DNA from: Microlunatus speluncae
GTDB lineage: Bacteria > Actinomycetota > Actinomycetes > Propionibacteriales > Propionibacteriaceae
Reading direction: 5' to 3'
Length of the DNA stretch: 64,000 nucleotides
Assembly: GCF_009299835.1 (NCBI RefSeq)
Contig: NZ_VKCZ01000021.1
Coordinates: 1 to 64,000, forward strand
Shown: one piece after another, positions 4,139 through 14,985 of the stretch
Position numbering within the stretch: position 1 is the first letter of the stretch
How the letters are laid out: each line of letters starts with the position of its first letter
Made by a program: the position numbers and the translations under genes
Notes under the pieces: model-generated
What the model was told of the DNA's origin: nothing
The model's database searches: none
Seen by the model: the letters and a program-made list of their open reading frames with translations, nothing else

Positions 4139-5083
4139 TCAACCCCCTGACCGCCGGGACAGCATCCGCTGCCACAGCCGGACCCCGTCCTCGACGGTCA
4201 TCGTCGGGCCGTCCTCGAGCAGGACGGCCTCGAGATCGGCCAGCATCCAGCTGACGTTCAGCGGCCCGGCGCCGTACCAGGCGTTGAAGTCGACCTCGGC
4301 GCCGACCAGGCCGGACGTGTCGAACATCGGATGGCCGAGCAGCGGCCGGCCGCCGCGGTTGACCGAGCCGACCAGCGACAGGTTCACCTCGCCGCGATGC
4401 TCGCTGACCAACTCGTACGAGACCTCCCGATACCCCCACTCGTTGCCCCGGTCCTGCTGCGGCGGCGGCCGGCGCAGGCCGAGCTCGGTGAGCAACCCGC
4501 CGAACGCCCGCACGTTGCCGTAGGCACAGACCTGCTGGCCGCAGGCCGAGAGCACCGAGACGACCGCGCCGGCGTGCGGCGTGGCCTCGAGCCGGGCCGC
4601 GAGGGAGCCGATGTCCGCGCGCAACCGGCCGATCAACGCCGCTGCCTGCTCCTCGTGGCCGGTGACCGCGGCCAGTGTGCCGAGCTGGTCGGCCCAGGCC
4701 GCGTTGTCGTCGATCAGCTGCACCGGGGCGATCTGCTCCAGCTGCGGCAGCAGCTCGACATGACCGGGGAAGCTGGTCCCGATGATCAACTCCGGCGCCG
4801 CCTCGGCGACCAGCTCGATCCGGCCGGGCTCGACCAGCGGGACGCCCGTCTGTCCCAGGATCTGGTAGGCGGCATCGACCAGCAGGTCTCCGGTGTACGG
4901 GTTCCGGGCCGCATGCGTCGGTGTCACCCCGATCGACAGCAACTGCAGTGCGGTCGACTCGTCCAGCGCCCAGACGCCCCGATCGGTGACCTGGCGGCCG
5001 GCGGGCGGCACCGTCGGATCGCCCGGAGCGCAGCCGGAGAGCATGATCATGATCATCGCCAGCACCCCGGCGGCCGCTCTCAT
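4139..5083 (-). CDS. iron-siderophore ABC transporter substrate-binding lipoprotein
   Basis: The 314-residue protein begins with a lipoprotein signal (MRAAAGVLAMIMIMLSGCAPG, lipobox Cys at residue 18), so it should be anchored outside the membrane. The rest has the class III periplasmic-binding fold used for siderophores and cobalamin (AAPELIIGTSFPGHVELLPQ, VSVLSACGQQVCAYG, and a C-terminal LNVSWMLADLEAVLLEDG segment). Its ATG overlaps the stop of the upstream ABC gene (ATGA at 5080-5083), so it is the third, translationally coupled gene of an operon that starts at 8588 under an iron box. The ligand cannot be read from sequence; a ferric siderophore is inferred from fold, neighbours and the iron box. 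Confidence 0.85.
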   Translation of the reverse strand: MRAAAGVLAMIMIMLSGCAPGDPTVPPAGRQVTDRGVWALDESTALQLLSIGVTPTHAARNPYTGDLLVDAAYQILGQTGVPLVEPGRIELVAEAAPELIIGTSFPGHVELLPQLEQIAPVQLIDDNAAWADQLGTLAAVTGHEEQAAALIGRLRADIGSLAARLEATPHAGAVVSVLSACGQQVCAYGNVRAFGGLLTELGLRRPPPQQDRGNEWGYREVSYELVSEHRGEVNLSLVGSVNRGGRPLLGHPMFDTSGLVGAEVDFNAWYGAGPLNVSWMLADLEAVLLEDGPTMTVEDGVRLWQRMLSRRSGG

Positions 5084-6828
5084 GCCGCACCCCCTCTGAT
5101 CCGCCAGGTGCGGGACTCCTCGTACTGCCGGAACAGGCGCGCGTAGCTGCCGCCGGTCAGCGCGAGCTCCGCGGGGGTGCCCTGCTCCACGATCCTGCCG
5201 CCGTCCAGGCAGATCACCTGATCGGCGGCCTCCAGCGTCGCCGGTCGGTGCGCGATCACGATCACCGTCCGCTCCGGGTCCCGGCTCAGCTCGCCGATGG
5301 CGGCACCGATCGCCGCCTCGTTCTCCGGATCCAGCGCCGAGGCTGCCTCGTCGATCAGCACGATCGCGGCGGGCTTCAGGAACGCCCGGGCGATCGACAC
5401 CCGCTGCCGCTCACCGCCGGACAGCTGCGCCCCACCTTCGCCGACGCGCGTCGCCCAACCGTCCGGCAACCGGTCGATCACCTCGTCCAGCCGGGCCTGC
5501 CGGGCTGCCCGCTCGAGCTCGGCCGGACCGGCCTCGGGCCACGCCATCCGTACGTTGTCCTCGATGGTGGTGTCGAACAGGTACACGTCCTGGAAGACGA
5601 TCGCGATCCGGTCCAGCAGCGCCGTCGGATCAAGATCACGGACGTCGCGCCCGCCGACCCGGACCGAACCCGAGGAGGCGTCGAAGAACCGGGCGATCAG
5701 CCTGGTCACCGTGGTCTTGCCCGAGCCGGACGGCCCGACCAGGGCCGTGCTGCTGCCCGGCGCACAGCGGAAGCTGACGTCGGCCAGTGCCGCCACCTCG
5801 GTCCCCGGATAGCGGAAACCGACCCGGTCGAACTCGATCTCCGCCCGATCGCCCGGCGCCCGCGGTGCGTCCGCCCGCGGCAGGCTCGGCGTCGCGAGGA
5901 ACTCCTCCATCGTCTTGATCAGGTGATCGATCGCGCCGATGCCGGAGACGTGGCCGCTCAGCGATCCCATCGGCTCCAGGAACCGGATCGCCAGCACCAG
6001 CGCCGCGACCGCGATCGGGAGGTCGATGGTGCCATCCACCAGGAACACCGCGACCAGCACCAGGATCAGCAGCAGACCGGCGGTGATCACCGCGGTGTAG
6101 CCGAGGTCCGGCCCGAGCAGCCGGTTCAATCCGCGGGCATAGCGGACCCGATGATCATCGAGATCGTGCCGCATCCGCTGCGTCCCGGTCGGCCCCTGCC
6201 CGGCAGCCCGGAGCACCGGCTGGGCCTGCCCGAACTCGATCGCGCGGCTGGTGATCTCGGTGCCCGCCTGCTCGATGTCGGCGACCACGACCTCGGTCAC
6301 CCGGCGCGCCCGGCGCAGGACGAGCAGCGCGACCGGCAGGGTGACCGCCAGCACCAGCCCGAGCCGCCAGTCCATGATCAACAGCAGCACGGTCACGGTG
6401 ATCGCCACACTCAGGCAGAGCACCGCCGGCCCGCCGACGACGACGGTGACCCGGGCCGCCCCGCCGGCGACGCTCGTTGCCGTACGGGCGAAGCGGCCCT
6501 TGTTCGCCGCGGTGAACCAGCCGAACGGCAGCGTGGTCAAGTGCCCCATCAGCGCGTGTCTGAGCTGGCTCGCGCTCTCGCCGCTGGCCACGAATCCGAC
6601 GGTGGTGGCCCGGTCGCAGAGCCAACAGAAGATGATCACTCCGACCGCGCCGACGGCCAGCCAGGGCACGGCGGCGGCCAGGTCCGGCTCCGGGCGCAGC
6701 ACCGCGCCGAGGATCGGCACCAGCAGGGCCAGCAGCAGCCCCTGACCGAGGCCGAGCAGCGCGTGCAGCACGGCCATGGTGATCATCGGACGAGGGTCGG
6801 TCAACATCCGACGGAGCCGGCGGATCAT
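5080..6828 (-). CDS. ABC half-transporter, permease-ATPase (siderophore uptake, IrtB/YbtQ-like)
   Basis: This 582-residue protein is a type I exporter-fold half-transporter: six membrane segments in about 300 residues, then an ATPase domain with Walker A GPSGSGKTT (about 363-371), signature LSGGERQRVS (about 468) and Walker B IVLIDEAAS. The ATG at 6828 is preferred because it overlaps the stop of the upstream gene (ATGA, 6825-6828). An in-frame start at 6858 would overlap that gene by 34 bases. The 3' end overlaps the lipoprotein gene in the same way. Paired exporter-fold proteins import ferric siderophores in IrtAB and YbtPQ. The iron box and binding protein make the same role likely here. 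Confidence 0.85.
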   Translation of the reverse strand: MIRRLRRMLTDPRPMITMAVLHALLGLGQGLLLALLVPILGAVLRPEPDLAAAVPWLAVGAVGVIIFCWLCDRATTVGFVASGESASQLRHALMGHLTTLPFGWFTAANKGRFARTATSVAGGAARVTVVVGGPAVLCLSVAITVTVLLLIMDWRLGLVLAVTLPVALLVLRRARRVTEVVVADIEQAGTEITSRAIEFGQAQPVLRAAGQGPTGTQRMRHDLDDHRVRYARGLNRLLGPDLGYTAVITAGLLLILVLVAVFLVDGTIDLPIAVAALVLAIRFLEPMGSLSGHVSGIGAIDHLIKTMEEFLATPSLPRADAPRAPGDRAEIEFDRVGFRYPGTEVAALADVSFRCAPGSSTALVGPSGSGKTTVTRLIARFFDASSGSVRVGGRDVRDLDPTALLDRIAIVFQDVYLFDTTIEDNVRMAWPEAGPAELERAARQARLDEVIDRLPDGWATRVGEGGAQLSGGERQRVSIARAFLKPAAIVLIDEAASALDPENEAAIGAAIGELSRDPERTVIVIAHRPATLEAADQVICLDGGRIVEQGTPAELALTGGSYARLFRQYEESRTWRIRGGAA

Positions 6829-8588
6829 GCCACGGCCTCGATCGCCTGCGCGGCCCACAGCCGGGCGTAACGGCCGTCGCGGTCCAACAGTTCGCGGTGT
6901 CGGCCTCGCTCGACGATCCGGCCGGCGTCCAGCACCAGGATCTGATCGGCCTCGGTGATCGTCTGCAGCCGATGGGCGATCACCAGCACCGTCTTGCCGG
7001 CCACCAGGGCTGACAGGGCGGTCTGCACTGCCGCCTCATGATCGGGATCCAGCGCAGCGGTGGCCTCATCCAAGATCACGATCGGCGCGTCGGCGATGAT
7101 CGCCCGGGCGATCGTCAATCGTTGCCGCTCGCCGCCGGAGAGGCCGCTCACGGTCTGGTCGAGCACCGTGTCGTAGCCGTCCGGCAGGGCCATGATCACG
7201 TCGTGCAGCTGGGCCGCCCGGGCGGCCGCTTCGATCTCGGCCAGGTCGGCGCCCGGCCGGGCGATCCGGATGTTCTCGGCGATCGTGTCGCGGACCGTCA
7301 CGACGTCCTGGAAGACGAGCGAGACGCTGCTCAGCAGCTCGGTGGAGGCGAGCTGCCGGAGATCGACGCCGCCGATCCGGATCGCGCCACCGGTGACGTC
7401 GTAGAACCGTGGCACCAGCGTGGCCAGGGTCGTCTTGCCGGCCCCGGACGGCCCGACCAGCGCGGTCAGCGTGCCCGGTCTCAGGGTCGCCGTCACGCCG
7501 CGCAGCACCGGAGTCGTGCCGTCGTAGCTGAACTCGACCTCGTCCAGCTCGACGCCGAAGCCCTCCGGTCGCCGCGGCTGCTCCGGCTCGGGCAACGCCG
7601 GCAGGGACAGCAGGCCGTCCAGGTGCGCACCGGCGAGCCGAGCGGTGCGCACGGCGATCGAGCCGTGGATCATCGGGATCAACGAGGTCGGCAGCCCCAC
7701 CCCGACCACCAGGAACGGCAGCAGCTCGATCGGCGTCAACCGACCGATGGCGATCATGATCATTCCGCCGGTCGTCACCACGGCCAGCACGGTGAGCTCC
7801 GAGCTCAGGATCCGACTCAGCGCCGAGCTGTAGCGGACCTCGCGGACCCAGACCCGGAACGCCGCCGCATGCTCGTCGGTCGCGGCGCGAAATCGTTCCA
7901 GCAGCCGGCCACCGCCGCCGTAGGTCCGGGCGACCGTGAAGCCGTCGGCATACTCCACCGCGGCCACGCTGATCCTCCGCTCGGCCGCGATCAGCCGCGC
8001 GGTGTGCTCCGGCATCGACCGCATCGAGAACCGATAGACCAGCAGCGCGAGCGCCGGCACCGCGGCCGTGATCGCCGCCATCGGCAGGTCGACGAAGCTC
8101 AGATAGCCGATCCCGACCAGCAGCCCGGCCAGCGCGCCGGTGAACCCGCCGATCGCGTGGGCGAACAGGTCGTGCATGTCCTCCAGGTCGCCGGTCATCG
8201 CCTTCTTCAACTCGCCCGACCCGGCCCGCCGGAACCAGCCGAGCGGCACCACGCCGAGGCGCTCCACCAGCCGGACCCGCAGCCGGTGCAGGATCTTCGC
8301 GTCGGCATGGTGACCGACGTGGCTGTCCAGGGCGACGAACACCAGCCGCGCCAGGGCCCCCGCGGCGCCGATCCCGACCCAGGCCCAGATCACCGCTCGG
8401 TCCGCGCTCGCCGCACCGAGGAACTGCCGCGCGATCTCCGTGATCGCGACATAGGGCGCCAGGCCGACCGCGGCGCCGATCGCGCCGAGACACGCACAAG
8501 CGATCACGTGGCCGTGCACCGGCCGGAGCATCCGCACCGCGTCGCGCCACGGGATCAACGGCGGGTGGTGACTGATCAAGGGACTCAC
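6825..8588 (-). CDS. ABC half-transporter, permease-ATPase (siderophore uptake, IrtA/YbtP-like)
   Basis: This is the first gene of the iron operon and encodes 587 residues. The membrane domain is followed by an ATPase with Walker A GPSGAGKTT (near residue 376), signature LSGGERQRLT (near 482), Walker B IVILDEATA and the H-loop VIAHR. It lacks the N-terminal siderophore-interaction domain of mycobacterial IrtA, so in layout it resembles YbtP more closely. It should form a heterodimer with the product of the next gene, to which it is translationally coupled. A DtxR/IdeR-type box begins 6 bases upstream of the start, so transcription should rise in iron starvation. Confidence 0.85.
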   Translation of the reverse strand: MSPLISHHPPLIPWRDAVRMLRPVHGHVIACACLGAIGAAVGLAPYVAITEIARQFLGAASADRAVIWAWVGIGAAGALARLVFVALDSHVGHHADAKILHRLRVRLVERLGVVPLGWFRRAGSGELKKAMTGDLEDMHDLFAHAIGGFTGALAGLLVGIGYLSFVDLPMAAITAAVPALALLVYRFSMRSMPEHTARLIAAERRISVAAVEYADGFTVARTYGGGGRLLERFRAATDEHAAAFRVWVREVRYSSALSRILSSELTVLAVVTTGGMIMIAIGRLTPIELLPFLVVGVGLPTSLIPMIHGSIAVRTARLAGAHLDGLLSLPALPEPEQPRRPEGFGVELDEVEFSYDGTTPVLRGVTATLRPGTLTALVGPSGAGKTTLATLVPRFYDVTGGAIRIGGVDLRQLASTELLSSVSLVFQDVVTVRDTIAENIRIARPGADLAEIEAAARAAQLHDVIMALPDGYDTVLDQTVSGLSGGERQRLTIARAIIADAPIVILDEATAALDPDHEAAVQTALSALVAGKTVLVIAHRLQTITEADQILVLDAGRIVERGRHRELLDRDGRYARLWAAQAIEAVA

Positions 8589-8633: not shown

Positions 8634-9281
8634 ATGTCAACTGATCCCATGAGCGAACGCACGGTGGGGATCGGCTTGGCGGCCGCGCTGTTCCGGTTGG
8701 CGCCCTCGGCACTGCGCTGGTGGGAGCGGCAGGGTGTGCTTCCGTCACCCCGCCGGACCGGAGCCCACCGGCGCTACGACGAGGCCGACCTGCGCCGGAT
8801 CGGCGTCGCCTATCTCTGCCACGTCACCGGTCGGATGCCCTTGGCCGAGGCCAGGATCGTGGCGAACGGCGGACTCCGGAATCACCGCTGGAAAAGGGCG
8901 GTTCGGGATCAGGTGCTCCGGCTGGAGGCCGAGCTGGACCAGCTGACCGCCGCCCGTGACTACCTGAGCCACCTGCTCGACTGCCACGACGGCGACATGG
9001 CCACCCAGTGCCCGTACCTGCCGGACGAGTTGATCAAGCACACCCCACGGGGCGAGATCGCCGAGCCGGATCTGATCAAGGCCGCACGACGGGCCCGCTC
9101 GATGCCGGGCCGGCGGCCCGTCCGTGACGAAACGGCAGCCGTCGATGACGAAACTCTGGCCTGCGAGGGTTGCGGCCAGATGATTCGAGCCGGGTTGCTC
9201 GGACGACCCCGCCGACACTGCTCGGCGGCCTGCCGGCAGCGGGCGTACCGGCGCCGCCGGATGGTCGTGCCGACGGACTGA
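8634..9281 (+). CDS. MerR-family regulator with C-terminal zinc-ribbon-like tail
   Basis: The protein has about 215 residues. It has a MerR-type helix-turn-helix (ALFRLAPSALRWWERQGVLP, then TGAHRRYDEADLRRI) followed by a predicted coiled coil (DQVLRLEAELDQLTAARDYLSHLLDCH). The C-terminus has a Cys-rich unit CEGCGQ ... RRHCSAACRQRAYRRRR, a four-Cys zinc-ribbon pattern ending in basic residues. The start is uncertain: ATG at 8634 or 8649 (MSERTVG); a TTG at 8613 would lie right beside the iron box and is less likely. The gene is divergent from the siderophore operon and may be iron-responsive or control it. Its effector is unknown. Confidence 0.8.
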   Translation: MSTDPMSERTVGIGLAAALFRLAPSALRWWERQGVLPSPRRTGAHRRYDEADLRRIGVAYLCHVTGRMPLAEARIVANGGLRNHRWKRAVRDQVLRLEAELDQLTAARDYLSHLLDCHDGDMATQCPYLPDELIKHTPRGEIAEPDLIKAARRARSMPGRRPVRDETAAVDDETLACEGCGQMIRAGLLGRPRRHCSAACRQRAYRRRRMVVPTD

Positions 9282-9307: not shown

Positions 9308-9318
9308 TTGTGTCACAA
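9308..9318. promoter_or_regulatory. short palindrome upstream of redox operon
   Basis: TTGTGTCACAA is a perfect inverted repeat (5-base arms, 1-base spacer) about 50 bases before the ATG of the NDH-2-like gene. The half-site TTGTG resembles part of Rex and Crp/FNR operators, but the spacing fits neither consensus. It is a candidate regulatory site only. Confidence 0.3.
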
Positions 9319-9367
9319 AAGCCTCCTGCCGCTCGGTCTTATAAGTGAGACCCGATGGAGGCACGAG

Positions 9368-10738
9368 ATGCGAAGGATTCTGATTGTCGGTGGCGGTTAC
9401 GCCGGTTTCTACACAGCTTGGGGGCTCGAGAAGAAGCTCCACCGCGACGAGGCGGAAGTGGTGCTGGTCGACCCGCGCCCCTACATGACCTACCAGCCGT
9501 TCCTGCCGGAAGTCACGGCCGGCTCGGTGGAGGCCCGGCACGTCGCGGTGGCCCTACGTGGCCACCTGCATCGGACCAAGATCATCGCCGGATCGGTGGT
9601 CGAGATCGACCACGCCCGACGGACCGTCCGAGTCAAGCCCCTGGAGGGCTCGGAGCGGGAGCTGAGCTACGACACGATCGTCGTCACCGCCGGCGCGGTG
9701 ACCCGGACCTTCGCGATCCCGGGCATCGCCGACAACGCGATCGGCCTGAAGCACGTCGAGGAGGCCGTCGCCGTTCGTGATCGGCTGCTGACCGCCTTCG
9801 AGCGCGCGTCCACCCTCGAACCCGGGCCGCGACGCCGGGCCCTGCTCACCGTCACGATCGTCGGCGGCGGCTTCACCGGCGTCGAGACGACCGGCGAGTT
9901 GCTCTCGCTGGCCACGGCGCTGTTGAAGCGCTACCCGGAGTTGAGCTTTGACGAGCTCGCGTTCCACCTGGTCGAGGCGCAGGGCCGGATCCTGCCCGAA
10001 GTGACCGACCGCCCCGGCGCCTGGGTGGTGCGCCACCTCGAGCGGCGCGGCGCCCAGGTGCACCTGAACACCCAGTTGGTCTCGGCGGTCGACGGCCGGG
10101 TCCGGCTGTCCGACGGGACCGAGTACGACAACGAGCTGTTGATCTGGACCGCCGGCAACGCCGCCAACCGGGTGGTCGCCGCGCACACCGACCTGCCGAT
10201 CGACACCCGCGGCAGGCTCAAGGTCCGGGCCGATCTGCGCGCCGCCCTTCGACAGGCTCAGGACGAGGCGGAAGCGGTGGTGCCGGACGCCTGGGGCGCC
10301 GGCGACAACGCCGCGGTCCCCGACCTGGTCAGCCCCACGCCGGGGGCGCTGACCGTACCCAATGCGCAGCACGCGGTCCGCCAGGGCCGGCTGCTGGCGG
10401 CCAACCTGGTCGCCGTCCTGCGCGGCCGGAAGCCGAAGCCGTATCGGCACCACAGCCTCGGCGTGGTCGCCACCCTCGGCCTGGGCACCGGCATCTTCCA
10501 GTACCGGCGGTTGGTGATCAAGGGCTTCCCGGCCTGGGTGATGCACCGCGGCTACCACGTGCTCGCGGTGCCGACCTGGGAACGCAAGATCAGGGTCCTG
10601 CTGGTGTGGCTCGCGGCACTCTTCTTCGGCCGCGACACCGTGTCCCTGCTTGCCGTCCAGCACCCGCGGCAGGCGTTCACCGAGGCCGCGGCGCCGCGGG
10701 AGCCGGTGCGGACGAACGAGGTCGAACATGCCCACTGA
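9368..10738 (+). CDS. type II NADH dehydrogenase-like FAD oxidoreductase
   Basis: The protein has 456 residues. It has the two dinucleotide-binding motifs of the NDH-2 family: VGGGYAGFYTA (residues 7-17) for FAD and VTIVGGGFTGVETTGEL (about 160) for NAD(P)H, plus the FAD-closing motif AWGAGDNAAVP. Such enzymes pass electrons from NAD(P)H to quinone at the membrane; the C-terminal amphipathic stretch (KIRVLLVWLAALFFGRDTVSL) fits membrane attachment. The ATG at 9368 has a GGAGG site 6 bases upstream; a longer frame exists but has no ribosome site. Residues ~292-301 (AALRQAQDEAEAVV region) are encoded by a copy of a dispersed palindromic repeat. The 3' end overlaps the cytochrome b gene by 11 bases. 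Confidence 0.85.
   Translation: MRRILIVGGGYAGFYTAWGLEKKLHRDEAEVVLVDPRPYMTYQPFLPEVTAGSVEARHVAVALRGHLHRTKIIAGSVVEIDHARRTVRVKPLEGSERELSYDTIVVTAGAVTRTFAIPGIADNAIGLKHVEEAVAVRDRLLTAFERASTLEPGPRRRALLTVTIVGGGFTGVETTGELLSLATALLKRYPELSFDELAFHLVEAQGRILPEVTDRPGAWVVRHLERRGAQVHLNTQLVSAVDGRVRLSDGTEYDNELLIWTAGNAANRVVAAHTDLPIDTRGRLKVRADLRAALRQAQDEAEAVVPDAWGAGDNAAVPDLVSPTPGALTVPNAQHAVRQGRLLAANLVAVLRGRKPKPYRHHSLGVVATLGLGTGIFQYRRLVIKGFPAWVMHRGYHVLAVPTWERKIRVLLVWLAALFFGRDTVSLLAVQHPRQAFTEAAAPREPVRTNEVEHAH
10243..10271 (+). repeat. dispersed palindromic repeat copy inside the NDH-2-like gene
   Basis: The segment contains CCCTTCGACAGGCTCAGG followed by ACGAG. It matches copies at 13913 and, with small changes, at 57816 and 57883. 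Short repeats with this core are common in actinobacterial genomes. Here the copy is read in frame, giving the peptide LRQAQDE between the second nucleotide-binding domain and the AWGAGDNAA motif. Confidence 0.7.
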
Positions 10739-12149
10739 GCGGCTGTCGCGACGGATCCGGGCCCTCACCGGCGACCTCAGGCAACGGCCCTTCCACCTGC
10801 ACTGGACCAACATCTTCGGCGTGGTGGCCGCCGCCTGCCTGGTCGTGCTGATGATCACCGGGGTGATCCTGATGATCTTCTACAGCCCGTCCACCGAGAC
10901 GGTCGTCTATCACGGCGGTTACGGCCCGCTGAACGGTGTCGAGGTGTCCCGGGCGTTCCAGACCACGATGGCGATCTCGTTCGACCTGCCCGGCGGGATC
11001 CTGATCCGACAGGCGCATCACTGGTCGGCCCTGCTGTTGCCGGCGGCCCTGTCGGTGCAGTTGTTGATCATGTTCTTCCGCGGCGCGTTCCGGCGGCCGC
11101 GGCGGCTGCGCTGGCTGTTGGTCTTCGGCCTGCTGGTGACGGCGCTGCTCGGCGGCTGGAGTGGGTACGCCCTCCCGGACGACTCGCTGTCCGGCACCGG
11201 GCTGCGCATCTTCGAAGGGATCGTCCTCGGCATCCCGGTGATCGGCACCTGGGCCTCCGCGCTGCTCTTCGGCAACGAGTTCCCCGGCCGGGTGCTGGAG
11301 TTGCTGTACCCGATCCACATCTGGGTCGTCCTCGGGCTGCTGGTGATCTTGCTCGGCGGGCTGCTCCGGTCCTGGCTGCGGGACCGGCCGGCCCGGTTCT
11401 CCGATCGCCGGCGGATCGGCCCGGCACCGGTCACGGTTACCCTGTTCCCGACCGCCGCTGCCCGGCTGGCCGGTCTGTTCGCGGTGGTCGTCGCGGTGAT
11501 CATGGTGATGGCCAGCACGATGACGATCAGCCCGATCTGGCTCTACGGTCCGGCCGACGCCGGCTCGGCCTCGGCCGGCAGTCAGCCGGACTGGTACACC
11601 GGCTTCCTCGACGGCGCACTGCGGCTGGTCCCGCCCGGGTGGGAGGTCAGCTGGCTCGGCTACACCTGGACCCTGGCCGTGATCGCTCCGCTGGCCGTGA
11701 TCAGCGCCTTCATGTTGCTGGTTGCGATCTATCCGTTCGTCGAGGAGCGGTTCACGCGGGACCGACTCGATCATGACGTGCTGGACCGGCCACGGGACGC
11801 ACCGACCCGGACCGGGGTCGGAGTGGCCGGGATGATCTTCTACGGCATCCTCTGGGGTGCGGCCAGCGCCGACATCGCGGCCACGATGTTTCAGCTCAGC
11901 CTCAACGTCGTCCTGACCATCCTGCAGGTCGCGATCATCACCGGCCCGGTGATCGGCTTCCTGACCGCCCGTAGCATCTGTCGCTGGCTGCAGCGCCGTG
12001 ACGCCGAGATCGCCGCCCACGGGTACGAGACCGGCCGGATCGTCCGGCTGCCCAGTGGCGGCTATGTTGAAGATCATCTGCCCGCGCTGACCCCGAGCGG
12101 CCGGCCGATCCCGGTCGCCGTCGGCCATCAACCGAAGGAGCTCACATGA
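10728..12149 (+). CDS. QcrB-like cytochrome b, predicted to lack heme bH
   Basis: The 473-residue membrane protein aligns through its length with the cytochrome b (QcrB) of actinobacterial bcc complexes: YHGGYGPLNGVEVSRAFQTT, SFDLPGGILIRQAHHW, FFRGAFRRPR, GYALPDDSLSGTGLRI, PDWY (287-290) and YPFVEERFTRD. The first ligand of each heme helix is present (H97 in AHHW, H197 in YPIHIW). The second is not: position 111, 14 residues after H97, is Gln, and positions 211-212 are Gly-Leu with no His before residue 220. The two lost positions are the bH pair, so a single heme bL is predicted. The Qo-type PDWY motif remains. The start overlaps the upstream gene and the stop overlaps the next ATG, so the three genes are coupled. 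No Rieske or cytochrome c gene is nearby. Confidence 0.8.
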   Translation: MPTERLSRRIRALTGDLRQRPFHLHWTNIFGVVAAACLVVLMITGVILMIFYSPSTETVVYHGGYGPLNGVEVSRAFQTTMAISFDLPGGILIRQAHHWSALLLPAALSVQLLIMFFRGAFRRPRRLRWLLVFGLLVTALLGGWSGYALPDDSLSGTGLRIFEGIVLGIPVIGTWASALLFGNEFPGRVLELLYPIHIWVVLGLLVILLGGLLRSWLRDRPARFSDRRRIGPAPVTVTLFPTAAARLAGLFAVVVAVIMVMASTMTISPIWLYGPADAGSASAGSQPDWYTGFLDGALRLVPPGWEVSWLGYTWTLAVIAPLAVISAFMLLVAIYPFVEERFTRDRLDHDVLDRPRDAPTRTGVGVAGMIFYGILWGAASADIAATMFQLSLNVVLTILQVAIITGPVIGFLTARSICRWLQRRDAEIAAHGYETGRIVRLPSGGYVEDHLPALTPSGRPIPVAVGHQPKELT

Positions 12150-13876
12150 TCGACACCGAACACCGGTTGACCACCTCGGTGCTGGTGATCGGCAGCGGCG
12201 GCTCGGGCCTGCGGGCCGCGATCGAGCTGGCCGAGCAGCGGGTCGACGTGACCGTGCTGGGCAAGCGGCCGCGGCTCGACTCGCACACGTCGCTGGCCGC
12301 CGGCGGGATCAACGCCCCGCTCGGCACCATGGATCCGGAAGACTCCTGGCAGCAGCACGCCGCCGACACGATCAAGGAGAGCTACTTCCTGGCCGACCCG
12401 CACACGGTGGAGACCGTGACCCGCGGCGCCGAGCAGGGCATCCGCGATCTCGAGCGGTACGGAATGGCGTTCGCCCGCGAGTCCGACGGCCGGATCTCGC
12501 AGCGGTTCTTCGGCGCCCACACGTTCCGCCGCACCGCCTTCGCCGGCGACTACACCGGCCTGGAGATCCAGCGCAGCCTGGTGGCGCGGGCCGAGCAGCT
12601 CGAGATCCCGATCATGGACGGCATCTACGTGACCGCGATCCTGGTCGACGACAACACCGTCTTCGGTGCGTACGGCTTCGATCTGGCCGACGGCAGCCGC
12701 TATCTGATCCACGCCGACGCCGTCATCCTCGCCGCCGGTGGGCACACCCGGATCTGGCGGCGCACGTCGTCGCGGCGGGATGAGAACACCGGTGACGCGT
12801 TCCGGCTGGCGGTCGACGCGGGCGGCCGGCTCCGCGATGCCGAACTGGTGCAGTTTCACCCGTCGGGCATCATCGAGCCCGAGAACGCCGCCGGGACGCT
12901 GATCTCCGAGGCGGCCCGGGGCGAGGGCGGCATCCTCCGCAACGCTCTCGGCGAACGGTTCATGGAGCGCTACGACCCGGCCCGGATGGAGCTGTCCACC
13001 CGGGACCGGGTCGCCCTGGCCGCGTACACGGAGATCAAGGAGGGCCGCGGCACCGAGAAGGGTGGCGTCTGGCTCGACGTCTCCCATCTACCCCGGGAAA
13101 CGATCATGAACCGGCTGCCGCGGGTCTACCAGACGATGCTCGAACACCAGTTGCTGGACATCACCCAGCAGCCGATCGAGGTCGCCCCGACGGCCCACTA
13201 CTCGATGGGCGGCGTCTGGACCCGGTCCGCCGATCACGGCACCGACGTCGACGGCCTCTACGCGATCGGCGAGGCCTCCAGCGGCCTGCACGGCGCGAAC
13301 CGGCTCGGCGGCAATTCCTTGATCGAACTGCTGGTCTACGGCCGGATCGTCGGCCGGGCCGCGGCCGCCTTCGCCGCAGCCCGCTCGGTACACCGCCGCT
13401 CCGTCGGCGCGACCGCCACGGCCCGGGCCGAGGTGGACGGGCTGCTGGCCGCCGACGGCACCGAGAACGTCCGGGCGCTGCAGCGGGCCCTGCGCACCAC
13501 GATGACCGAGCATGCCGGCGTGGTCCGGGACGAGAACGGATTGGCCACCGGACTGGCCGAGCTGGACGCGATCGCCGACCGGGCCACCCGGATCGGGGTG
13601 CACCCCGACATCGCCGGCTTCGCCGATCTGGCCCACGCGTTCGACCTCAAGGCCTCGATCCTGGCCGCGCGGGCAACCCTGGAGTCGGCCCGGGAACGCC
13701 GGGAGACCCGCGGCTGCCACAACCGGTCCGACTTTCCCGACCTCGATCCGGCCCTGCAGGTCAATCTGGTCTGGTCGCCGACCGCCGGTGTCACGGCCGA
13801 GCCGATCGCCCCGGTGCCGGAGGAGATCGCGGTGTTGATCAAGGACGTGTCGTCGGCTGGCAAGCTGGTCGAGTAG
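12146..13876 (+). CDS. FrdA/SdhA-like flavoprotein
   Basis: The 576-residue protein belongs to the fumarate reductase / succinate dehydrogenase flavoprotein family. It has the FAD motif VIGSGGSGLRAAIELAE (residues 14-30) and SHTSLAAGGIN, with the His (47) that carries covalent FAD in SdhA/FrdA. The dicarboxylate-site residues are all visible: H238 in QFHPSG (Ser replaces the usual Thr), R258 in ARGEGG, H351 in PTAHYSMGG and R386 in ANRLGGNS. The C-terminal RGCHNRSDFPD is like that of L-aspartate oxidase as well. No iron-sulfur subunit or membrane anchor of Sdh/Frd type follows. Coupling to the cytochrome b gene (ATGA, 12146-12149) suggests it exchanges electrons with that protein. The substrate could be fumarate, succinate or a related acid. 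Confidence 0.8.
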   Translation: MIDTEHRLTTSVLVIGSGGSGLRAAIELAEQRVDVTVLGKRPRLDSHTSLAAGGINAPLGTMDPEDSWQQHAADTIKESYFLADPHTVETVTRGAEQGIRDLERYGMAFARESDGRISQRFFGAHTFRRTAFAGDYTGLEIQRSLVARAEQLEIPIMDGIYVTAILVDDNTVFGAYGFDLADGSRYLIHADAVILAAGGHTRIWRRTSSRRDENTGDAFRLAVDAGGRLRDAELVQFHPSGIIEPENAAGTLISEAARGEGGILRNALGERFMERYDPARMELSTRDRVALAAYTEIKEGRGTEKGGVWLDVSHLPRETIMNRLPRVYQTMLEHQLLDITQQPIEVAPTAHYSMGGVWTRSADHGTDVDGLYAIGEASSGLHGANRLGGNSLIELLVYGRIVGRAAAAFAAARSVHRRSVGATATARAEVDGLLAADGTENVRALQRALRTTMTEHAGVVRDENGLATGLAELDAIADRATRIGVHPDIAGFADLAHAFDLKASILAARATLESARERRETRGCHNRSDFPDLDPALQVNLVWSPTAGVTAEPIAPVPEEIAVLIKDVSSAGKLVE

Positions 13877-13902: not shown

Positions 13903-14985
13903 TCAGCTGGCCTGCCCTTCGACAAGCTCAGGGGACGAAGGGCGAGGCGCCTTCTTGGCCAGTCGGGACAGCAGCCAAACCGTGACGAGAATGACGAGCG
14001 GGCCGGTGGTCACCGCGACGATCGTGCTGAGTTGGTCCGTCGGATGCAGCAGCGCCATCGCGATCGGGAAGGTCGTGTGCCCGACCAGCGCGCCGCCCGC
14101 CAGCCAGATCCGATGCAGGTCGGACATCCCGGCGTGGTGCCAACGGATGATCAGCACCGCGGTGATCACCGCGACCGCCGCGGCCACCGTCATCGGCAGG
14201 AACACGAAGTTTCCTTCGCCGATCACCGGCCCCTGCGGCGGGTTGCCCGGAGGCATCAGCAGGCCGAGAAAGATCAGCGTGGCCGCGGCCGTGATCAGTC
14301 CGGCGACGACCGGACGCGGCACCGGCGGACGGACCTCCTGCAGGACCGCCGGCGGCGCGGTGACCGGGAACCGCTTCGGGATCACCCGCAGCGCGACGAA
14401 GGAGATGATGATCATGACGATCACCAGCCCGATCAGGTACGGCAGCGGCGCCAGATAGCCGGGATCCGTCGTCGAGGTGAAGACGATCTTGAGCATCGCG
14501 ATGCCGAGCACGGCCGCCACCCCGGAGATGATCAGGCCGCGCCGGCGCAGATAGGGCTCGGCCCGCAGCTCCGGGAAGACCAGGTTGGTGATCATCACCG
14601 GGATCAGCACGCTGAACGCGAGGTGATAGCCGATCTGGGACTCCCAGTAGGTCAGGTTGACGCCGAGCACCCGCGGACCCCACTCGGCGGCGTTGTACAG
14701 CACCGGACTGGTCAGCGCCTGCAGCCCGAGGCCGTCCTCGGCCAGCTCGTACACCAGACCCATCAGCAACAGGCTCGGCCAGCCGCCGCCGGCCCGGGCG
14801 ACGAGCTCGCGGATCACCAGCACGCCGAGCCCGTACATCGGGATCAGGAACGGGAACGCCAGCCACATGATCGGCATCCCCACCGCCGAGAAGGCCAACT
14901 CGGCACACAGTGGCGCGAGCAGGACCAGCAGCCACGCCGCCTTGCCCCGCCTCCGCGTCGGCCTGTTCGTCACCGGATCCGTCAC
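13903..14985 (-). CDS. polytopic membrane protein of unknown function
   Basis: The 360-residue protein is almost entirely hydrophobic, with about ten predicted membrane segments (for example WLLVLLAPLCAELAF, LIGLVIVMIIISFVAL and VVAGLITAAATLIFLGLL). I do not recognise a family. The last residues (SSPELVEGQAS) are encoded by a copy of the dispersed repeat at 13913, so the original C-terminus may have been different. The gene is divergent from a TetR regulator with a perfect palindrome between them, so it is probably the repressor's target. A permease or exporter role is possible but not shown. Confidence 0.75.
   Translation of the reverse strand: MTDPVTNRPTRRRGKAAWLLVLLAPLCAELAFSAVGMPIMWLAFPFLIPMYGLGVLVIRELVARAGGGWPSLLLMGLVYELAEDGLGLQALTSPVLYNAAEWGPRVLGVNLTYWESQIGYHLAFSVLIPVMITNLVFPELRAEPYLRRRGLIISGVAAVLGIAMLKIVFTSTTDPGYLAPLPYLIGLVIVMIIISFVALRVIPKRFPVTAPPAVLQEVRPPVPRPVVAGLITAAATLIFLGLLMPPGNPPQGPVIGEGNFVFLPMTVAAAVAVITAVLIIRWHHAGMSDLHRIWLAGGALVGHTTFPIAMALLHPTDQLSTIVAVTTGPLVILVTVWLLSRLAKKAPRPSSPELVEGQAS
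13913..13948 (+). repeat. dispersed palindromic repeat copy at a gene end
   Basis: This copy contains CCCTTCGACAAGCTCAGG followed by GGACGAAGGG, so the outer bases form an imperfect hairpin (CCCTTCG ... CGAAGGG). It supplies the last codons of the membrane protein read on the minus strand and lies downstream of the FrdA-like gene, where it could also act as a transcript end. Confidence 0.75.

Follow-up and report, generated by a model that had tools for sequence, protein, structure and literature searches.

A putative ECF41/SigJ-type operon of Microlunatus speluncae combines an NDH-2-like enzyme, a cytochrome b without heme-bH ligands and a probably separate FrdA-like flavoprotein

What might an NDH-2-like dehydrogenase (NDH), a cytochrome b and a fumarate/succinate-type flavoprotein do for a cell when their three genes overlap one another and none of their usual partners is encoded nearby? 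The question is raised by an operon in the first 64,000 nucleotides (the window) of a 391-kb contig, NZ_VKCZ01000021.1, from the 6.79-Mb genome of Microlunatus speluncae (completeness 97.4, contamination 7.8). The original prediction, made from the letters alone, read the three products as one membrane module for electron transfer among NAD(P)H, quinone and a dicarboxylate. The operon is here read, tentatively, as a target, of the 'oxidoreductase' class, of an ECF41/SigJ-type sigma factor, in which an uncoupled NADH-to-menaquinol overflow branch would be made together with a separate fumarate/succinate flavoprotein; the anatomy and the regulon are supported by sequence comparison, and the mechanism is one that we infer.

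The starts, reading frames and overlaps (11 bases, then ATGA) originally given for the three genes are correct (Table 1), and the 11-base overlap makes translational coupling of NDH and cytochrome b likely. Their identities hold as well. The first protein has a Pyr_redox_2 domain and is a flavoprotein of the type that binds two dinucleotides; its best solved relatives are NDH-2 enzymes, which it resembles over most of its length, and NADH:quinone activity is predicted. The second has actinobacterial QcrB as its best solved relatives (E ~1e-100, aligned nearly full length), shares 43% of its residues with the QcrB of the host and reaches 481.3 bits against the QcrB_actin profile NF050120, just below its cut-off of 500. 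The third combines FAD_binding_2 and Succ_DH_flav_C domains, has SdhA, FrdA and NadB as solved relatives, and reaches the cut-off of none of the 25 NCBIfam models shown among 46 matched. Since the host encodes elsewhere a QcrC-QcrA-QcrB set, two Sdh sets with iron-sulfur subunits and other NDH-2-like genes, besides two NadB-like genes (some of these named by eye), the operon would add to an existing respiratory chain.

The cytochrome b is the most unusual of the three, and its description as 'mono-heme' is supported by an alignment of 12 such proteins with 32 canonical QcrB. The canonical proteins all have the four heme-ligating histidines, whereas in all 12 of the others the pair for heme bL is kept (H97 and H197 in the window) and the pair for heme bH is gone (replaced by Q111 and L212 in the window). 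Glycines 45 and 143 are also kept in all 12, as is the PDWY form of the PDWY/PEWY motif of the quinol-oxidation (Qo) site, while six residues found in at least 95% of the canonical proteins (E32, R114, N128, K220, H221 and T222) are lost throughout. The operon protein thus has the bL ligands and PDWY in common with the QcrB of actinobacterial bcc-aa3, and differs from it by the lost bH ligands, the lack of QcrA and QcrC encoded alongside and its position in a separate clade. Six of the 12 members, that of the window included, came from 147 family-survey genomes as a second QcrB-like protein (at least 51%), four were reached through loci of the FrdA-like gene (L053, L054, L058 and L085) and two came from a class survey, in which four of 216 genomes, including the host, scored at least 778 bits and the other matches shown at most 630. 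In an order survey, a bL-only cytochrome b was present in three of 57 genomes, the host again included. The 12 proteins form one clade with a support of 1.0. A second degenerate group (seven sequences, L164-L170, genus g142 of family f47) has kept the bL ligands and lost the second bH ligand, with His (six) or Gln (one) at the position of the first and PAWY in place of PDWY. Together, the two groups are split from the 39 other sequences at a support of 0.999, on a tree whose midpoint root is arbitrary. These comparisons support the existence of a natural, conserved clade of cytochromes b in which the bH ligands have been dropped and the bL ligands and Qo motif are invariant.

With which genes does this cytochrome travel? 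Searches by tblastn (E <= 1e-5) with two SdhB, one SdhC, QcrA and QcrC of the host gave no match in the window or in 84 other loci, in keeping with the absence, originally noted, of a Rieske protein, cytochrome c, iron-sulfur subunit and Sdh-type anchor nearby; a bc complex with neighbouring Rieske protein and cytochrome c was rejected on these grounds, and so was a classical FrdAB or SdhAB pair. What does recur is the operon itself. The order NDH-cytochrome b-FrdA, for which a synteny check had been proposed, is found in M. parietis (L053) and in genome G005 (L041), and the 11-base overlap in L053, L058 and L085, so that the arrangement is more than chance. The three genes are together in six loci and three arrangements, in agreement with the predicted linkage: the window, L041 and L053 have the order above, L058 and L085 have FrdA-NDH-cytochrome b, and in L054 divergent cytochrome b and NDH genes are followed by sigJ and FrdA. 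The tightest association is that of the first two genes, and their pairing is supported by these gene orders: NDH lies directly upstream of, and overlaps, the bL-only cytochrome b in eight of the 12 loci, by 11 bases in four and 14 in the other four (the cytochrome b starts of L041 and L045 being those nearest the NDH stop). Among the eight members found through the cytochrome b itself (window included), NDH adjoins it in five and FrdA in two. NDH relatives 58-73% identical occur in all seven other genomes with a bL-only cytochrome b, not always beside it. For FrdA, orthologues (at least 79%) occur in G005, G240 and G358; at E <= 1e-60 there is no match in G018, G059 and G098, and G107 has only a 40% relative. 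No FrdA orthologue was thus found in four of the seven, three of which retain the NDH-cytochrome b pair.

The FrdA-like protein has a wider life of its own. A scan of named genomes, from which the best 80 of 591 stretches were taken and which is therefore no census, gave 79 loci (78-88% identity) in Microbacterium, Streptomyces, Arthrobacter and others, with flanks of at most 8 kb (and a total length below 17 kb in 14 loci) and gene counts that depend on a heuristic open-reading-frame picker (third-position GC) and cluster-based family names. The gene is mostly an orphan there, with a bL-only cytochrome b and NDH near it in four of the 79. With the window and L041 added, 81 loci contain a LysR gene in 35 cases, an NmrA-like gene in 28 and a SigJ-like gene in 24. 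None of the 35 loci with LysR (L055, for example) has an ECF41-type site before FrdA, and the LysR-linked orphan apparently represents another mode of control for this enzyme. The 82 rows of the FrdA alignment comprise 81 genes, recovered from 80 of the 81 loci, with the window present twice. The histidine for covalent FAD (His47) and the dicarboxylate residues H238, S254, E255, R258, R286, H351 and R386 are identical in all 81 genes and align with the corresponding histidine and catalytic residues of SdhA. The protein differs from SdhA/FrdA complexes in that no FrdB is encoded nearby and in Ala52, present in all 81 genes at the position of SdhA Gln50 and FrdA Glu49. Inspection shows no leader, which places the protein in the cytoplasm, and its nearest named relative among the matches listed is that of Microlunatus parietis (88%). 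The protein does not qualify as an L-aspartate oxidase (NadB), with 348.7 bits against a nadB cut-off of 452.75 and no linkage to quinolinate genes; the host's two other NadB-like copies sit beside quinolinate-pathway-like genes (names by eye). Rejected was the idea that Streptomyces cytochromes b near FrdA are of the same mono-heme type: the seven complete copies, which are QcrB paralogues (L067, L088, L091, L102, L114, L116 and L121), keep all four histidines, the partial L115 and the fragmented L110 being left out of this count.

What switches the operon on? An ECF41 sigma factor was considered because neighbouring genes suggested it. The targets of this group, in the part of the source available, are carboxymuconolactone decarboxylases (CMD), oxidoreductases and epimerases (jointly COE), with the promoter TGTCACA-n16-CGTC (PMC3426412). 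Before the operon lie an intact TGTCACA -35 box and a spacer of 16 bases, within the 16+/-1 of ECF41; in M. parietis, both boxes are at the same place, with a spacer of 15 and a different spacer sequence. Altogether, seven of the 12 bL-only loci (the window, L042, L045, L046, L053, L054 before cytochrome b, and L203) have an intact TGTCACA, a spacer of 15-16 (16 in five) and a -10 box with no more than one mismatch, placed 30-44 bases upstream of NDH or cytochrome b, and at most four of 200 shuffles were as good in each case; the -10 box is CGTC in L203 and TGTC in L045, L046 and at the L054 cytochrome b. The host genome contains seven TGTCACA-N15/16-CGGT sites (one for the reversed pattern), four of which directly precede two NmrA/epimerase genes, one AhpD/CMD gene and the operon, while the other three have no such target within 1.5-kb flanks. 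Each of the two NmrA/epimerase targets follows a SigJ-like gene. The -35 box, the spacing and the presence of three target classes in one genome are as in ECF41 regulons. The 79 FrdA loci contain 111 copies of TGTCACA-N15-CGGT; permuted motifs, of which 299 were counted, gave 0.7 on average and six at most. Sites with CGGT or CGTC lie upstream of 17/81 FrdA, 15/32 NmrA, 7/40 SigJ, 7/14 CMD, 6/13 NDH, 6/6 WhiB, 6/12 OsmC and 3/14 cytochrome b genes, counts that are not independent because many of the loci are from related Streptomyces. The SigJ-like protein of L054 passes the NCBIfam SigJ cut-offs and has 12 matches in the host, eight of them near full length and the best 57% identical. Together, these findings support the operon as an ECF41/SigJ-type target, alongside AhpD/CMD and NmrA-type epimerase genes, and the sigma factor that activates it is apparently of the stress type. 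The promoter was not part of the original prediction, of which the gene linkage stands and to which regulation is added here. Streptomyces-type loci also contain WhiB, OsmC, cupin, ferredoxin, ferredoxin reductase and AhpD/CMD genes, many of them behind an ECF41-type site, and such a site is present near the start of two of eight pyruvate dehydrogenase E1-type genes (e.g. L062:4988-7819).

How could these proteins work? NDH-2 reduces quinone and pumps no protons, and in cytochromes b heme bL lies on the outer and heme bH on the inner side of the membrane. Under stress, the cell would make an NDH-2 that hands electrons from NADH on to menaquinone without pumping, together with a cytochrome b whose outer Qo site could bind menaquinol and oxidise it. 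With bH and the Qi side lost, a bL-only cytochrome b should not return electrons across the membrane, and a Qo site and bL without bH or Qi would leave no Q cycle. NDH-2 and cytochrome b together might therefore provide an uncoupled, energy-dissipating overflow route for NADH directed towards the outer side, which would probably end in trans in the resident QcrA/QcrC-aa3 chain. The FrdA-type protein would function independently, as a cytoplasmic fumarate/succinate flavoenzyme (or one reoxidised by O2) of the same stress response, a separate role suggested by its cytoplasmic location, its lack of an iron-sulfur partner and its frequent absence. As a general statement, that Qi-less, bL-only cytochromes b oxidise menaquinol without a Q cycle and form, with a dedicated NDH-2 under ECF41-type control, an uncoupled overflow branch is possible but doubtful.

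Several observations weigh against this overflow reading. NDH was not found near the cytochrome b in three of the 12 loci (L043, L203 and L204), nor in the flanks read at the seven loci of the g142 group, and is therefore no obligate partner. The -10 box of the window is CGGT instead of the published CGTC, only four CGTC sites occur in the 79 FrdA loci, and CGGT is found there at no other spacer between 12 and 21, whereas that of the window is 16. Five of the 12 bL-only loci have poorer promoters, with one or two mismatches in the best site of L041, L058, L085 and L043 and a best site no better than chance in L204. The best host sigma copy falls just below both NCBIfam cut-offs (322.4/323.25 and 265/271). 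Finally, the AlphaFold model that an alignment of ten rows gave for the cytochrome b is weak, with a mean pLDDT of 63.9, and was not used.

Do other explanations fare better? The originally predicted membrane complex, in which electrons would pass from NAD(P)H through heme and quinone to fumarate, or back from succinate, would account for the overlapping genes, the joint occurrence of all three in six loci and three arrangements, and an FrdA with active site and covalent-FAD histidine intact. It seems difficult to reconcile with the four of seven genomes that have the cytochrome and no FrdA orthologue, with an FrdA that mostly occurs without the NDH-cytochrome b pair and has a LysR gene in 35/81 loci, and with the missing FrdB. 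Moreover, it is the outer heme that is kept and the inner one that is lost, and a heme on the outer side could not wire two cytoplasmic flavoproteins to each other; the single module is thus very improbable. The cytochrome b could instead serve NDH-2 mainly as a dock in the membrane and as a quinone channel, with a structural heme and FrdA as a passenger of the regulon. The 11- or 14-base overlaps of NDH and cytochrome b would fit such a two-protein unit, as would the better conservation of NDH across loci (68-83% identity, against 49-71% for cytochrome b), but an invariant Qo motif and bL ligands exceed the needs of a dock, three of the 12 cytochromes have no adjacent NDH and NDH-2 enzymes are not known to require an integral partner. 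It is an unlikely arrangement.

As a further candidate, the cytochrome b might under stress take the place of QcrB in the resident bcc-aa3 supercomplex, or block it there, as an alternative subunit without catalysis of its own. It is, after all, a paralogue of QcrB whose outer half is preserved, and the three of 14 cytochrome b genes of FrdA loci that lie directly behind an ECF41-type site are four-His Streptomyces copies. Streptomyces coelicolor, according to the available part of one report, has an extra paralogue, QcrB3, which is encoded away from the qcr-cta genes, is made in spores and is recovered on purification together with Nar1 and components of bcc-aa3, an example of an additional QcrB that can join other respiratory complexes (PMC7931247). 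QcrB2 and QcrB3 resemble the operon protein in being additional paralogues; the seven complete Streptomyces-type paralogues aligned here, possible counterparts of QcrB2/QcrB3, differ from the operon protein in their four histidines. An alternative subunit would leave the overlap with NDH unexplained and is rather improbable. Mere co-regulation, in which a stress regulon would contain the three redox proteins as independent members without a common pathway, would agree with the variable gene order and with the diversity of genes behind the Streptomyces-type motif (AhpD/CMD, OsmC, WhiB, cupin, ferredoxin, ferredoxin reductase and pyruvate dehydrogenase E1). Such a grouping would hardly have kept the NDH-cytochrome b overlap in eight loci despite the divergence of the cytochromes, nor joined all three genes recurrently in different orders, and we regard it as highly unlikely.

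Cytochromes b with bL as their only heme have so far mainly been laboratory mutants, made for studies of Qo short-circuits and superoxide. A natural bL-only clade with an invariant Qo motif makes the function of Qo without the other half directly testable, and a natural 'half' enzyme could test how cytochromes b work. The little-understood ECF41 regulons would gain a respiratory target, composed of NDH-2, cytochrome b and an orphan FrdA, beside their CMD and epimerase targets; the words 'fumarate' and 'flavoprotein' are absent from the main text of PMC3426412, and the COE classes named in its available part do not include cytochrome b. No description of the operon or of a natural bL-only QcrB was found in the accessible text of the open-licence PMC literature, and the available parts of PMC2631018, PMC9205884 and PMC8999054 make no mention of the operon's genes.

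Table 1. Coordinates of the operon, its putative promoter and key residues of the cytochrome b in the window
Feature	Position	Strand	Basis or conservation
Putative ECF41/SigJ-type promoter TGTCACA-N16-CGGT	9311-9337	+	ends 30 bases before NDH start; boxes kept in L053
NDH-2-like FAD/NAD(P)H:quinone oxidoreductase (predicted)	9368-10738	+	456 aa; Pyr_redox_2; orthologues 68-83% identical adjoin same cytochrome b
NDH/cytochrome b overlap, 11 bases	10728-10738	+	reading frames
QcrB-like cytochrome b without heme-bH ligands	10728-12149	+	473 aa; profile, alignment, tree
H97, first heme-bL ligand	codon 11016-11018	+	kept 12/12
Q111 at first heme-bH ligand position	codon 11058-11060	+	His 32/32 canonical, Gln 12/12 clade
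V132 at bH-side helix-C glycine	codon 11121-11123	+	Gly 32/32 canonical; Leu 11, Val 1 in clade
H197, second heme-bL ligand	codon 11316-11318	+	kept 12/12
L212 at second heme-bH ligand position	codon 11361-11363	+	His 32/32 canonical; Arg 9, Trp 2, Leu 1 in clade
PDWY motif, Qo site	11586-11597	+	kept 12/12
Cytochrome b/FrdA overlap, ATGA (4 bases)	12146-12149	+	reading frames
FrdA/SdhA-like flavoprotein without iron-sulfur partner	12146-13876	+	576 aa; domains, alignment

Around the operon, the MerR-type gene upstream (8637-9281) was rejected as a further member, since tblastn gave no match to it around the operon in G005 or M. parietis, and no RNA element reaches its gathering score between 8500 and 14200. 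The genes downstream in M. parietis match those of the window (membrane protein 80%, TetR 71%). Further upstream, the minus strand encodes a periplasmic binding protein, possibly for metal or siderophore uptake, and two consecutive ABC exporter-type genes (4139-8588). The NDH gene, which differs from those of known NDH-2 enzymes in its overlap with a cytochrome b gene, has hits in the class survey that fall into identity bands of about 71-78%, 56-61% and 47-54%. A REP-like repeat, CTTCGACARGCTCAGGR, is present at 10247-10263 and 13917-13933, with four matches at no more than two mismatches against 0.07 expected; its first copy lies inside the NDH coding sequence, at about six extra residues that the NDH proteins of the window and M. 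parietis share and that are absent from eight others aligned.

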